Source of the DNA: Streptomyces amritsarensis
GTDB lineage: Bacteria > Actinomycetota > Actinomycetes > Streptomycetales > Streptomycetaceae
NCBI RefSeq assembly: GCF_001953875.1
Contig: NZ_MQUR01000001.1
Location: 124,039 to 188,038, forward strand
Direction: 5' to 3'
DNA: 64,000 bases
Shown here one piece after another: positions 57,215 to 62,740 of this stretch; positions within the stretch are counted from its first letter, which is position 1, and the number at the start of each line of letters is the position of its first letter. The translations under genes and the position numbers were made by a program. The notes beneath the pieces are model-generated. The model did not search any database, was not told where the DNA came from, and worked only from the letters and a program-made list of their open reading frames with translations.

Positions 57215-57286
57215 GCCCCCGTAGCTCAGGGGATAGAGCAACGGCCTCCGGAGCCGTGTGCGCAGGTTCGAATCCTGCCGGGGGCA
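57215..57286 (+). tRNA. tRNA-Arg (anticodon CCG)
   Basis: A full cloverleaf: acceptor GCCCCCG/CGGGGGC, D stem GCTC/GAGC, anticodon stem ACGGC/GCCGT around the loop CTCCGGA (anticodon CCG), T stem GCAGG/CCTGC with TTCGAAT. CCA is not encoded. It decodes CGG. The 3' part, from the anticodon stem onward, is the attachment site of the downstream element. A TAGTGT at 57180 may be its -10. Confidence 0.96.
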
Positions 57287-57287
57287 C
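57245..57287 (+). repeat. Left attachment site (within tRNA-Arg)
   Basis: A 43-bp stretch from the anticodon stem to one base beyond the tRNA end, repeated exactly at 62698-62740. This copy keeps the tRNA gene intact, as expected for tRNA-targeting integrases. Confidence 0.93.
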
Positions 57288-57521: not shown

Positions 57522-57959
57522 ATGACGCCTGAAACCCGAGCGAAGAAGGCCAAGCCACTCCCTACGCCGAAGCAACGCGGCATCGCTGGGGTAACGCACA
57601 GCAGGGCTGCGAAATCCGCTGTAGAGGGCAAGAGCACTAAGCTCAAGCCTGCAGAGGTTGACCAGCGCAGCTCGCCGCGTTCCCGTGCGGGCGGCTACTC
57701 CAGCTCTACCGAAGTAGCCCAGGTTCGACTGCGCCCAGACGAGATGGCAGACCTGCGCCTCGTGATGCAGACCCTCAACCTCACGTCGCTGTCTGACGCT
57801 CTCCGAGAGGGATTGCGCCTACTTTCACGCGAAGCTGCGGAGGTGGCAGCCTCTGAGGAGATTCGCTCCTTCTATAAGGGGGCGCAGGCTCCGACTCCGG
57901 CAGGCGTTGCGCCAGCCACGGCGGATGAGCTGGAAGCAGCAGACGAGATCGAATGGTGA
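57522..57959 (+). CDS. Ribbon-helix-helix antitoxin of a MazF-type module
   Basis: 145 residues. A long basic N-terminal extension (Lys/Arg/Ser-rich to about residue 60), a ribbon-helix-helix DNA-binding segment (VAQVRLRPDEMADLRLVMQ, then LTSLSDALREGLRLLS, about 64-100), and an acidic C-terminal tail (ATADELEAADEIEW) of the kind that neutralises MazF. GAGGAGG lies just upstream of the ATG. It overlaps the toxin gene by 7 bases. The partner makes the assignment reasonable; the N-terminal extension is unusual. Confidence 0.75.
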   Translation: MTPETRAKKAKPLPTPKQRGIAGVTHSRAAKSAVEGKSTKLKPAEVDQRSSPRSRAGGYSSSTEVAQVRLRPDEMADLRLVMQTLNLTSLSDALREGLRLLSREAAEVAASEEIRSFYKGAQAPTPAGVAPATADELEAADEIEW

Positions 57960-58291
57960 GTCCCGGTTCCGCGATGCGCGGAGAGGTATGGGGATGCGTC
58001 CTGCCCAGCCCAATCGGCTCACACCCCGTGGTCGTCCTCACCGTCAATCGCATTGCCGAACCACTGTCAGCGGTGACCGTTGCCGTGGTTACCGGAACGT
58101 CTGGCCCAACATCCACTCATGTCCCCATTGGCCCCGAGTGCGGCGTAACCAAGTACGACGAGTCATACGTCAACTGCACGGACCTGCACACCGTGGACAA
58201 GTCCAGGCTTCGTAGGCGTCTCGGTCTCCTGGATCTGAGCGAATTGCAGCGAGTCGAGGACTGCGTTCGCGTCATCTTGGGCCTTTCATGA
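57953..58291 (+). CDS. MazF/PemK-family toxin (endoribonuclease)
   Basis: 112 residues from the ATG at 57953 (GTG 57956 and ATG 57974 are alternatives; the conserved part starts at the last as MRGEVWGCVLPS). MazF features: RGEVW, HPVVVLTVN, a VAVVTGT strand, and the C-terminal TDLHTVDKSRLRRRLGLL. It is expected to cleave mRNA and to be held inactive by the preceding gene product. It ends 24 bases before a bidirectional hairpin. Confidence 0.87.
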   Translation: MVSPGSAMRGEVWGCVLPSPIGSHPVVVLTVNRIAEPLSAVTVAVVTGTSGPTSTHVPIGPECGVTKYDESYVNCTDLHTVDKSRLRRRLGLLDLSELQRVEDCVRVILGLS

Positions 58292-58357: not shown

Positions 58358-59038
58358 CTACATCCCCGGTGTGTCGCCTTCGTCATCGAGAGCCTTTGCA
58401 ATCTTCGCGTTGGCCGCCTCCTCGTGACCGTCGATGCAGCCGTGGTATCGGCGATGAATCACCTCAGGCGAGTTGCCGACGCGCCGCGCCACCTCAGCAA
58501 TGGGCGCCCCAGCATTCAGCCACCGCGTGATGCACGCGTGCCGCAGGTCGTACGGGCGGCCGGCCAACGGCGAGTCCATACGTTCCGGGGGCAGCGCGTA
58601 CGCCCGCGCTTCCTCCCATACCCGCCAATAAGTGGAGGATCCGACCACTCCACCGCGTTCGTTCCCGAAGACACGCCCCTCCTTGGCGGTCCCGAACTCC
58701 TCTCGGTGCGACTGAAGGATGGCGACCAGAACGGCCGGTATAGGGACCGGCCGGTCCGTGGACGCCTCGCGCGCCTTCAGGCCACGCCGGTCGTGGCGCT
58801 CGCCAGAGTCGGTCCACTGCTTCCCGGAGACGGGGCGCGTCTCCCGCAGCGTCAGCGTGCCCCACCCGTTCTCGGGCAGGTGGCAGTCCGTCCACCGGAG
58901 CCCGACCGCCTCGGCGGGTCGAAGCCCCGCGTAGTACAGGACCCGGCAAGCCAGTGCGGCGAGTCCGAGACGGCCTGTGTAGCCCCAAACGGCCGGTCTG
59001 TCGCCCCAGCGCCGATCGTCCGGCGACAGGGACTGCAC
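58358..59038 (-). CDS. Tyrosine recombinase, catalytic domain only (truncated integrase)
   Basis: 226 residues with the complete catalytic domain: the first Arg in YYAGLRPAEAVGLRW, the second box RPYDLRHACITRWLNAG, and the nucleophilic Tyr in HRRYHGCIDGH near the end. The N-terminal core-binding and arm-binding domains are missing: an in-frame TAA (minus strand 59053-59051) closes the frame 5 codons before the GTG at 59038. Actinomycete integrases are usually 370-450 residues. The element may therefore be unable to move without help. Confidence 0.8.
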   Translation of the reverse strand: MQSLSPDDRRWGDRPAVWGYTGRLGLAALACRVLYYAGLRPAEAVGLRWTDCHLPENGWGTLTLRETRPVSGKQWTDSGERHDRRGLKAREASTDRPVPIPAVLVAILQSHREEFGTAKEGRVFGNERGGVVGSSTYWRVWEEARAYALPPERMDSPLAGRPYDLRHACITRWLNAGAPIAEVARRVGNSPEVIHRRYHGCIDGHEEAANAKIAKALDDEGDTPGM

Positions 59039-59115
59039 ACGATGTCGGTGTTACTTCGACTTAGCTTCGTGCCGCATTTTACACAAAGCGACGATAAAAG
59101 CTGCGCAATAACCAT
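58852..59115 (-). pseudogene. Possible remnant of a zinc-ribbon regulator gene overlapping the integrase
   Basis: The frame from ATG 59115 begins MVIAQLLSSLCVKCGTKLSR and has C-x2-C at residues 11-14 and 27-30 (CVKC, CSPC). This matches the zinc-ribbon start of helix-turn-helix regulators common in Streptomyces. From about residue 32 it reads the integrase gene in another frame and has no coding character. The simplest explanation is a deletion that joined the start of a regulator gene to the middle of the integrase. Confidence 0.45.
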
Positions 59116-59176
59116 GGGTATTGTTCGTTCCCCTCGACAGGAGTGCATTGACCGCAACGACGCGAGTGCGGCCAGT

Positions 59177-61219
59177 TCATCGGATTCTCGCGGACGCTTG
59201 GCCCGCAACGCTCGCCGCAAGAAGATTCAGACGCCGAGCTGTCGTACCCGGATCTTCGAGAATCGAGTACTGGGAGCCCACTTTTCGGATCGCGTGGATA
59301 ATTTCCGAAGAAAGGAACTTCAACACAGATTCAATTTCGTGCGGAGTCGGCGGATTTTCTACTTCGGACCGGAAAATCAGGTATAGATCGTGAGCCGAGA
59401 GCGCGCCAGTCGTTACCGCGTCCGCAGAGGCTGCTTCGGTGGCCAACTGTCGCAAAACCCGATCACACAACCTATACATCCTTTTCTCCGCGCTCCACCG
59501 CTTTTCGAGCACCCCACTCTCCACCACGCCGACACGACTACATACGTCCCTAAGCTCTTGAAGCGTGAGCGGGGCTTGCGCATGATGCTCGACAATGGAG
59601 ATCAGAGTTTCTACATCCAGTAGCCCCACGCCATGCGCTTCGGCTCGTGCGGCCAGACGGCTACCGGGGAATCCTGGACCAACGACGAGTATATACTCTG
59701 CCGAATTCGCGGCGCGATGTTCCTTAAGCGTGTCGAAGTTGACCTGCGTCTCCCCAATCTTCCCGGATGCCGACGACTTGGCATCGACAATTACGCTGTA
59801 CTTAGAGTCGCCAGAGAGGTGCGCCGTGACCAGGACGTCGGTTTGCCCGGGGCCGCCGAAAAGTTGACTGTCGTACCCGAGATGTGCAAATGCCTCCGCG
59901 ACTTCTCGCTCGAACCGCTCAGGGCTACCCGAGTCCCGCGAGGCTGCCCGCAAAGTCTCGGCCGTCGGGCTGAGCGAGGCCTCAACCCCAGGAGTCGGGC
60001 CCTCCCCCTGCGTCGCTTCAAGGGCTGCGGGCGCGTCCGTCGGCAAGTCAGCCAGCATGGCCCGACCTAGCGGGAGCACTCGATAGTGCCCCCAAGTAAC
60101 CTCCTCTACGAGCCCACACTCTCGCAGCATTTGAAGTCGCGTCCGCACTTCCGGAATGTCCTCGCGAGGAACCCTGTAGCGAGTCAGCGCCAAGGCAGCC
60201 AAGTCGCGAGGGGTGTCAACTTCCTCAAGGGCTTCTAGGATTTCACCGACGAACTTAAACTTCGAATGAACGACACGCAGGTAATCGAGGTCATGCGGTG
60301 CGGCGAGGCAGGCTTTCGCAATATCTGTAGACCGGTAGGTACCGAACCCCACTTGTTCAACCATCCCCGCAGCCTTGAGCGTTCCAAGAGCGGAGGCGAC
60401 CGACGATGGCCTGAGGCCAAATTCAGCCGAGGCGAACTCGTCAATCTCCTCACGCGACATATCATCAGTCAGCGCTTTAGAAAATTTCCGCATCGTCAAA
60501 AAAGAGTCGCCATCATTGCGCGGAATATACCCAATGTTGGCCTTACGATCCCGCCCAGGGCCATCAAGCTGAGCCCGGACGAGTGGATGTGCTGCGGGCA
60601 GCTCCGTGACTGGGTCGACTTTTCCCGCACGTCGCTTACCAATTTTCGGTTCGGCCAGCTCCAAGCGCCGCACAAGCTCTAGGCCCGACTCTGTGGGGGT
60701 AATGTCATGCCGAAAGTCAAGCTCGACAAATCCGCCTGCTCGAAGCCAAGCTGTCCGCCTTCGGATCTGGTCAAGGCTCTCCCACGCACAGCCATATTTC
60801 TCAGCCGCGCGGGTCAAGAGATCCGACTGCGTACAGCCTTCGCGGGCCTCGTGAACCAGCTCACCCACAAAACGGATGTTGGCATGGAGAATCGCGATTA
60901 GATAAGCGTCGTCGCCGCTGTTCAGCCACTCCTCAGAATGCATGGTGAGCGCCCAGGAACTGCGACCCATCCTTGTAACAAGTCCCGCTGGCTGAAGTCG
61001 CTGACCAACCAGGGCAAGCGTTGTGTGGCCACCTGCGTCGCCCGGCAGGGCGATTGGCTCCTCCACCGGGAGACCGTCACGAAGGGCTGCCAGCAGGACA
61101 CGCAGAACCTCAATCTGCGCGTCCGTCCCACCCGGCAACGCCGGCATGGAAAACGCTCGGTTACTCCACGGCCGCACCGGTAGCAGTACCTCCGCGCCAT
61201 GGACTCGTTCGACGCTCAC
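59177..61219 (-). CDS. Winged-helix protein with FokI-like PD-(D/E)XK nuclease domain
   Basis: 680 residues from the GTG at 61219, chosen for GGGGAGG 5 bases upstream; a GTG at 61267 adds 16 residues. The first 400 residues look like several winged-helix units (GLVTRMGRSSWALT; WLRAGGFVELDFRHDITPTE; AAGMVEQVGFGTYRST; ECGLVEEVTWGHYRVLPLG). The nuclease domain (about 434-545) has GYDSQLFGGPGQTD, SVIVDAKSS and GLLDVETLI then LTLQELRD, paralleling the FokI cleavage domain: Asp461, then Asp479-Ala-Lys481. About 125 further residues follow. No methyltransferase is nearby. A standalone nuclease, probably anti-phage, is inference. Confidence 0.72.
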   Translation of the reverse strand: MSVERVHGAEVLLPVRPWSNRAFSMPALPGGTDAQIEVLRVLLAALRDGLPVEEPIALPGDAGGHTTLALVGQRLQPAGLVTRMGRSSWALTMHSEEWLNSGDDAYLIAILHANIRFVGELVHEAREGCTQSDLLTRAAEKYGCAWESLDQIRRRTAWLRAGGFVELDFRHDITPTESGLELVRRLELAEPKIGKRRAGKVDPVTELPAAHPLVRAQLDGPGRDRKANIGYIPRNDGDSFLTMRKFSKALTDDMSREEIDEFASAEFGLRPSSVASALGTLKAAGMVEQVGFGTYRSTDIAKACLAAPHDLDYLRVVHSKFKFVGEILEALEEVDTPRDLAALALTRYRVPREDIPEVRTRLQMLRECGLVEEVTWGHYRVLPLGRAMLADLPTDAPAALEATQGEGPTPGVEASLSPTAETLRAASRDSGSPERFEREVAEAFAHLGYDSQLFGGPGQTDVLVTAHLSGDSKYSVIVDAKSSASGKIGETQVNFDTLKEHRAANSAEYILVVGPGFPGSRLAARAEAHGVGLLDVETLISIVEHHAQAPLTLQELRDVCSRVGVVESGVLEKRWSAEKRMYRLCDRVLRQLATEAASADAVTTGALSAHDLYLIFRSEVENPPTPHEIESVLKFLSSEIIHAIRKVGSQYSILEDPGTTARRLNLLAASVAGQASARIR

Positions 61220-61254: not shown

Positions 61255-61434
61255 GATCTGCCTTCACAGGCTGGGACGGCAGCGTTTCGTCAGATCTGAT
61301 GCGCGACAGGTTGATGGCTGCCGGCGGGCTGGCTCATTCAACCCGTGGGATGACGAGGCGGTCTGCAGAGCACGGGGCCAGGGTGTCGGTGCCTCAAAGG
61401 AGGTCTTTTCCAGATTGGTTGGGCACGAAGCTCG

Positions 61435-61497: not shown

Positions 61498-62565
61498 ATG
61501 GACATGCTCTCCGACGTAACACTCACGCAGGACCAGCACTCCCTCCTCGGCGCTATCGCCCACCCGTGGCTTGACACTGGTGAGTGGCCGCTGTGGGCCA
61601 ATGTTCAGCACCGGTACGACCTGCGAGGCCAGGACGCCGACATCATCCTCAATTCGATGCCCCGTGTCGGCATTGAGGGACCCTTCGGCGCCAGCTACGG
61701 TTTCGTCTCCCACCCCCGGCCCCGTGTAGGCCCGGGTGACCGGGTGCGGCTGACGGTAGCTGCCTCCCTGGTCCTCCCCCAGGTGAAGATGATGGCTGGG
61801 GATCCCTTCGTGCAGGCCCTGCGCCACATGATCGACCTCTACACCGATAGGCCGATCACCAACGAACTCCCCACCGTCCACCTCCGCTCCACCGAACTCG
61901 CTTCCACACATCCCTCCTTCAAGCCCTGGTTCGTCCAGGTCCTACCCGACCTGCTCTCGCACGAGCCGGCCATCAGCACCAGTGGCGTCAATTTCCCCGA
62001 TGGGCGCTGGGAGCGCGATGTCACCCGCAGCGTGATGAAGTACATCGGCGTAGACACCGTCGAGAGGTACATCGAAAAGACGATCGAGATTGTGACCGCG
62101 AACGCCGCTGAGATCACTCCGGCCCCCGTGGAGATGATCGAGCCACAAGTCTCCCTGCCCGGGCGCGGGCCGTACGTGGGCCTCGCCCTTCTCTCTGATC
62201 TGGAGAAAGCCGCACAGACGAGCACTTGGGGGCTGCACAAGCTGATCGCCCTGTGCCGGGAGCTGAACGAGAACTACGCGACCGGCAACCCGTATGCGAG
62301 CGCGGCTTTGATCCGGGCCATCCTGGACCACATCCCACCGGTCTTTGGGCACCGAGACTTCAAGCAGGTCGCGGCCCAACACCCGTTCCCCATACAGCGG
62401 ACCGACAAAGCACACGCCCAGAGGCTCGCTGCCTTCAAGGACATCGCCCATGACGGTCTGCACCGGCCCATCAGCGATGCCGCGGGCCCCACCATCGGCA
62501 TGGACGACCTGGAACCGCCCGCCCGCCTCAACGCCATCCTTCACGAGCTGGCGCGGCTCCTCTAG
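61498..62565 (+). CDS. Unknown protein divergent from the FokI-like nuclease
   Basis: 355 residues from the ATG at 61498, with AGAGG 5 bases upstream (in-frame GTG 61450 and ATG 61504 are alternatives). The N-terminal 55 residues look like a helical or winged-helix unit (LTQDQHSLLGAIAHPWLDTG). The C-terminal third, LHKLIALCRELNENYATGN, then SAALIRAILDHIPPVFGHRDF and a final ILHELARLL, resembles a conserved domain I recall from other uncharacterised, often island-borne, proteins. No enzymatic motif or membrane segment is visible. Placement beside the nuclease suggests a joint role. Confidence 0.7.
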   Translation: MDMLSDVTLTQDQHSLLGAIAHPWLDTGEWPLWANVQHRYDLRGQDADIILNSMPRVGIEGPFGASYGFVSHPRPRVGPGDRVRLTVAASLVLPQVKMMAGDPFVQALRHMIDLYTDRPITNELPTVHLRSTELASTHPSFKPWFVQVLPDLLSHEPAISTSGVNFPDGRWERDVTRSVMKYIGVDTVERYIEKTIEIVTANAAEITPAPVEMIEPQVSLPGRGPYVGLALLSDLEKAAQTSTWGLHKLIALCRELNENYATGNPYASAALIRAILDHIPPVFGHRDFKQVAAQHPFPIQRTDKAHAQRLAAFKDIAHDGLHRPISDAAGPTIGMDDLEPPARLNAILHELARLL

Positions 62566-62697: not shown

Positions 62698-62740
62698 CCT
62701 CCGGAGCCGTGTGCGCAGGTTCGAATCCTGCCGGGGGCAC
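62698..62740 (+). repeat. Right attachment site
   Basis: Exact 43-bp copy of 57245-57287. Only the 3' part of the tRNA is present, so it marks the far end of the element. Confidence 0.93.

Follow-up and report, generated by a model that had tools for sequence, protein, structure and literature searches.

FokI is the textbook type IIS restriction enzyme and also supplies the cutting part of zinc-finger and TALE nucleases; it has three unlike recognition subdomains, dimerises to cut both strands and is accompanied by a cognate methyltransferase. BpuJI, HindIII and Nt.BspD6I are site-specific systems acting on unmodified DNA, and what winged helices recognise in FokI and BpuJI is ordinary sequence. 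The present study concerns a nuclease gene found in Streptomyces amritsarensis within an integrative element inserted in a tRNA gene, and analysed in a stretch of 64,000 nucleotides (contig NZ_MQUR01000001.1, positions 124,039 to 188,038) that is called the window below. Its product is predicted to fold as FokI and to possess a FokI-type catalytic triad, and its probable recognition half is a tandem duplication. Winged helices joined to a nuclease are well known to read N6-methyladenine (6mA), and most of these enzymes have no methyltransferase within three genes (PMC11037411); the same source lists FokI among enzymes that do not depend on methylation. Mrr joins a winged helix to Mrr_cat (PMC12707154). 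Defence loci with nucleases of the FokI-like or winged-helix kind are the subject of other papers (PMC12839542, PMC10853773).

The model we propose is that of an orphan, type IV-like defence nuclease cutting incoming DNA that bears modifications absent from the DNA of its host, and we give it about as much chance of being right as of being wrong. The duplicated winged-helix modules would bind DNA and would license cleavage at a modified base only, two nuclease domains would dimerise to cut both strands, and the host DNA would be spared for want of that mark in that context. This reading is favoured because winged-helix nucleases read 6mA and because Mrr combines a winged helix with Mrr_cat. 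A preliminary description of the locus had listed recognition of modified or foreign DNA, activation by infection and control by the divergent neighbour as means of sparing the host, and the first of these is the most likely. The nuclease and its predicted parts are the following.

59177..61219, minus strand: orphan FokI-type nuclease, 680 amino acids (aa) (list of open reading frames, Pfam, fold search, profile search)
60650..61162, minus strand: module 1, two winged helices, residues 20-190 (model; hhalign to module 2)
60041..60544, minus strand: module 2, two winged helices, residues 226-393, resembling the BpuJI recognition domain
59519..59983, minus strand: FokI-type PD-(D/E)XK nuclease domain, residues 413-567, with D461, D479 and K481 (fold, alignment, profile)
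59204..59518, minus strand: C-terminal winged helix with a long final helix, residues 568-672 (model; fold matches)

The reading frame, for which the preliminary description gave no strand, lies on the minus strand and starts with GTG, preceded by GGGGAGGG; the frame may also begin earlier, with the GTG at 61267. The FokI-like landmarks recognised by eye in that description, Asp479 and Lys481 included, are where it placed them: a helix with an LGY end, GGPGQTD, VIVDAK, which contains D479 at a spacing of 18 residues from D461, then VGLLDVETL ... PLTLQELRDV. Profile search, hhalign and Foldseek agree with this placement, and the structure model, which had been suggested as a check, displays the PD-(D/E)XK fold. 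The attribution of the whole C-terminal third to a FokI-like domain has to be narrowed: residues 413-567 are the nuclease domain, and the part from residue 568 onwards is another winged helix, with many winged-helix fold matches across residues 574-667.

The FokI structures 1fok and 2fok are the top Foldseek matches of the model (E 2.4e-11). FokI also ranks first in a PDB search with the nuclease-domain profile built from 39 sequences (E 8.6e-4), but an unrelated acetyltransferase comes second (E 0.0039), so the sequence evidence by itself is modest. In a direct hhalign comparison, the nuclease domain aligns with the FokI cleavage domain over 133 columns (probability 90, E 1.4e-6), against a probability of 0.4 for a control with an arbitrary profile. 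D461, D479 and K481 are invariant in all 39 full-length rows, window included, and PF04471 (Mrr_cat) matches the nuclease with 26 bits for a Pfam cut-off of 21. PF09254, the FokI C-terminal family, is given in the precomputed database annotation (21 of 26). A fold search of viral models returned only short proteins that cover part of the structure, the best at E 1.8e-5 (225 aa) and one of 187 aa carrying the FokI name; none covers the whole layout at E 0.001.

The repeated winged helices announced for the N-terminal two thirds are present in the model, which contains five of them, four ahead of the nuclease domain and the fifth behind it. Modules 1 and 2 are copies of one two-winged-helix unit (hhalign E 1.7e-32 over 165 columns), a reversed module profile giving no match, and the N-terminal part is thus a true tandem duplication. 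Among 66 nuclease reading frames sorted by hand, that of the window included, 39 have the module-module-nuclease layout, with the C-terminal part attached in 38 and encoded by a separate reading frame at L036 (L-numbers designate the compared loci); L039 and L041 have a weak module 1. One module, the nuclease and the C-terminal part make up 12 others, and seven consist of the nuclease domain without any module; the eight that are partial or broken (L025, L027, L032, L040, L051, L058, L063 and L066) were excluded from the counts. The mean column entropy is 2.06-2.44 bits per winged helix versus 1.88 for the nuclease domain. The modules are therefore nearly as conserved as the nuclease, which fits better with one shared target class than with the varied targets of type II enzymes. 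In a tree of 64 nuclease domains the deep part is poorly resolved, with long branches and 20 of 61 inner branches open, and hence no order of module gain or loss is claimed.

The double-module layout is shared by 38 other full-length relatives, from Actinomycetota and Bacillota, and by eight more genomes of the genus. The nearest named protein relatives are from Streptomyces, where the nuclease is a patchy accessory gene: it is present in 13 of 392 genomes surveyed, window's included, the other full-length copies being 28% to 61% identical to that of the window, and the 7.8-Mb window genome (G000) has a single match to the protein. Five plasmid records carry the nuclease, and it was found in none of 50,697 phage records; a scan of viral contigs yielded 45 candidate stretches, none of which was confirmed as the nuclease. 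On one of the plasmids, from Priestia aryabhattai (L068), an ABC-three-component system and an AbiH-family gene lie on one side of the nuclease and a site-specific integrase on the other, a setting that resembles a defence island.

The element was said to lack a methyltransferase, and domain library scans of its proteins indeed find none; nor does the survey of homologues display any consistent pairing with such an enzyme. Motif-flagged called genes were checked with Pfam for this survey, several contigs being short. In the flanking sequence examined, a DNA methyltransferase is found at three of the 38 double-module loci other than the window: N6_Mtase at L014 (3.3 kb from the nuclease), an MmeI-type enzyme at L039 (8.4 kb) and an HsdM-type enzyme at L041 (about 1 kb), the last being the only one of the 38 within three genes. 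By contrast, five of the seven nuclease-only relatives (L056, L057, L059, L060 and L065) have a methyltransferase within three genes, of the N6/N4, D12 or type I kinds. Chance is an unlikely explanation of this difference (Fisher 9.9e-5, for rows that are related and contigs that differ in length).

Among the called genes of the 12 one-module loci no methyltransferase was flagged, and those of eight double-module loci added by the genus survey include none either; a six-frame scan of these eight gave five candidate frames at three loci. A six-frame motif scan of the earlier loci also gave extra frames, which overlap other genes; the three that were checked (two at L036, one at L063) match no family. 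No DNA methyltransferase family appears among the 25 commonest of the 151 Pfam families matched by 125 immediate neighbours. Among the genes listed, in an incomplete table, for four of the five plasmid records there is no DNA methyltransferase either; the methylated-DNA repair protein of one record is not a methyltransferase.

The host genomes bear on the same question. G000 has no match to N6_N4_Mtase, N6_Mtase, Eco57I or MethyltransfD12 and has three C5-methyltransferase genes, all on contigs other than that of the window. G061, the draft genome whose nuclease (L002) is 85% identical, has no C5 gene, no match to PF01555, PF02384 or PF02086, and a single PF07669 match, the PglX of a BREX-2 system. 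Across the five families tested, these two genomes have no methyltransferase in common; if such similar enzymes have the same specificity, no common methyltransferase of these families guards both hosts.

Several observations weigh against a type IV-like enzyme. The winged helices of FokI and BpuJI recognise unmodified sequence; a profile search with the whole protein put HindIII first, not FokI; PF09254 is absent from the Pfam scans made here, which list Mrr_cat; and PADLOC contains no such system, the nuclease getting weak matches from it (best E 0.005). As to methyltransferases, the three flanked loci include one, L041, where the distance is so short, the comparison of the two genomes counts five families in a pair of which G061 is a draft, and G061 does carry an adenine methyltransferase. 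Furthermore, PF02384 is found in 12 of 18 host genomes, G000 being among the 18, and PF01555 in eight, seven of them over the cut-off. Since adenine and N4 methyltransferases are so frequent in the hosts, the nuclease cannot attack all 6mA or N4-methylcytosine, and a rule that all hosts are devoid of 6mA is unsupported.

One can go further and imagine a class of self-sparing nucleases with two reading modules per chain, each placed on a modified half-site, in which cutting would need two marks and which would move on elements and plasmids without a methyltransferase; we put this forward tentatively, as clearly less probable than the type IV-like activity itself. In any case, a wide family that pairs the catalytic domain of FokI with a duplicated reader, and has no methyltransferase, implies that self and non-self are told apart by other means. 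If it is modification-dependent, it would constitute a FokI-type branch of type IV restriction and a possible tool to map modified bases, and the nuclease may influence the transfer of DNA into the strains that carry it.

The main rival to the type IV-like reading is an action gated by infection, in which the extra winged helices would restrain the cleavage domain until a phage product or a DNA structure, rather than a modified base, frees it, the nuclease then killing the phage DNA or the cell. In FokI itself, the cleavage domain stays docked on the recognition half as long as no DNA is bound, and the winged helices on either side of the nuclease domain could do the restraining. The other cargo of the element looks abortive, with PemK and a HEPN-like protein, and the hosts tolerate the gene alongside various methyltransferases. 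Against it, domain and defence library scans find no sensor domain in the nuclease besides the winged helices, and the called neighbours of the compared loci supply no constant partner: no cluster accompanies the majority of double-module copies, and the largest are P-loop proteins or confined to one group of closely related one-module genomes. We regard this gated action as possible but rather unlikely. Defence-like PADLOC matches among the 125 immediate neighbours were set aside, there being no control set.

An ordinary type IIS-like restriction enzyme, protected by a methyltransferase encoded elsewhere in the genome, appears improbable. FokI itself is of this type, the nuclease-only relatives are distant loci that mostly have a methyltransferase at hand, and the C5 genes of G000 could be invoked; however, the two hosts whose nucleases are 85% identical share no enzyme of the five families, and carriage by plasmids and elements would transfer the nuclease apart from its partner. 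It is equally improbable that the nuclease merely maintains or moves its own element, or is a decaying gene, as its carriage by an integrative element and plasmids, the truncated integrase of the window, the eight partial or broken reading frames and the position of the L004 gene between a tRNA and a full integrase might suggest, for the catalytic residues and the architecture are kept across deep divergence and two phyla and an integrase is found, among the matches listed, in two of the 125 immediate neighbours scanned.

The element around the nuclease comprises the following features.

57215..57287, plus strand: tRNA-Arg (anticodon CCG), integration target (ARAGORN)
57245..57287, plus strand: left copy of the attachment (att) core, 43 bp, 3' part of the tRNA (perfect direct repeat)
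57522..57959, plus strand: antitoxin-like protein, 145 aa, ahead of PemK, overlapping genes (position; weak NCBIfam ParD-type match, E 0.11)
57953..58291, plus strand: PemK/MazF-type toxin, 112 aa (PF02452, E 4.1e-15)
58358..59038, minus strand: tyrosine integrase, 226 aa, catalytic part only, N-terminal domains missing (PF00589, E 7.4e-7)
61498..62565, plus strand: divergent neighbour with winged helices and a HEPN-like C-terminal domain, 355 aa if begun at the ATG, 371 aa if begun at GTG 61450
62698..62740, plus strand: right copy of the att core, 43 bp (perfect direct repeat; empty sites in relatives)

That this is a tRNA-integrated element, as first described, is borne out by the repeat and by the relatives. 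The insertion measures about 5.5 kb, with a guanine-cytosine content of 0.623 inside versus 0.717 and 0.713 on its outer sides. Among the loci kept in a flank search, 10 related ones represent the tRNA-Arg site: eight are empty, the whole tRNA being present without mismatch and leading, by the coordinates, into the window's sequence downstream of the right att copy, and two have the core only and seem to hold some other insert. At these two, L083 and L084, the core lacks the 5' part of the tRNA; L083 has a single copy, and L084 two copies about 17 kb apart, one of them diverged. The site seems to be an integration hotspot. The integrase fragment aligns to positions 290-454 of the 611 of phrog_1, and the loss of everything but the catalytic part makes the present mobility of the element doubtful. 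Upstream of the fragment, a short frame at 58852-59220 on the minus strand begins with a zinc-ribbon-like CxxC...CxxC stretch and reads into the integrase in a different frame; it is probably gene debris where the integrase lost its N-terminal part. Elsewhere, a tRNA-Val gene and a full integrase flank the nuclease at L004, a short contig where a second att copy was not found, and a tRNA-Met lies about 430 bp from it at L118; a tRNA within 1 kb at two of 46 other double-module loci means that the association is not general.

The antitoxin-like assignment of the 145-aa protein is suggested by its position ahead of PemK. Control of the nuclease by the divergent neighbour, the third means of sparing the host, finds no echo elsewhere, no relative of that gene being present among the called genes of any of the 65 other nuclease loci. 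In its HEPN-like domain the R-x4-H motif is invariant in 35 of 35 aligned rows; its named homologues are nearly all from Streptomyces, none with a precomputed Pfam family. We tentatively regard it as a separate HEPN RNase, outside the nuclease system, and it and PemK probably travel on the same mobile element as independent cargo.

At eight of the 12 one-module loci (L042, L045-L049, L052 and L053), which form one group of related genomes, mostly Acidimicrobiia, the nuclease is preceded, at a distance of 34 bp, by a same-strand gene belonging to a single cluster (at L042, 9367-9942 and 9977-11440, both plus). The L042 member, the one scanned, matches an HhH-GPD DNA glycosylase (E 3.3e-7), and an HNH gene on the opposite strand stands in front of the pair; a glycosylase-nuclease operon is possible. 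SLFN_AlbA_2 / HATPase_c_4 proteins also occur near the nuclease (L015, 736-2088, plus; cluster mates at L013, L016, L027, L030 and L034), and SLFN_AlbA_2 is found, among the matches listed, in five of the 125 immediate neighbours scanned; this may reflect either a common gene neighbourhood or a setting of defence genes.

In conclusion, the nuclease resembles FokI in its cleavage-domain fold, its D/D-x-K triad and its N-terminal winged-helix half, FokI being the top fold and profile match, and differs from it by the duplicated two-winged-helix module, the fifth winged helix after the nuclease and the lack of a linked methyltransferase. Of the traits of type IIS enzymes, it would share the separation of a winged-helix half, with a predicted recognition role, from the cleavage domain, and lacks the linked cognate DNA methyltransferase. 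The double-module family is not named in the titles and abstract openings searched, subscription journals lying mostly outside the search, and the FokI-type double-module form is not described among the winged-helix 6mA-dependent nucleases in the accessible sections of PMC11037411. With Mrr it shares a winged helix N-terminal to Mrr_cat, with PF04471 over its cut-off, and the absence of a methyltransferase partner; Mrr binds through a winged-helix domain and has PD-QxK as its catalytic site (PMC12707154), whereas the present enzyme, compared with EcoKMrr and Mrr-like type IV enzymes, has four winged helices before the nuclease and a D-x-K site instead of PD-QxK. Finally, it resembles DpnI, FcyTI, Psp4BI, HhiV4I and Ahi29725I, which, according to the same sections of PMC11037411, combine a winged helix with a nuclease mostly without a methyltransferase neighbour, in a 6mA-dependent set where the winged helix is fused to DpnI-type PD-(D/E)XK, HNH, GIY-YIG or PLD nucleases.
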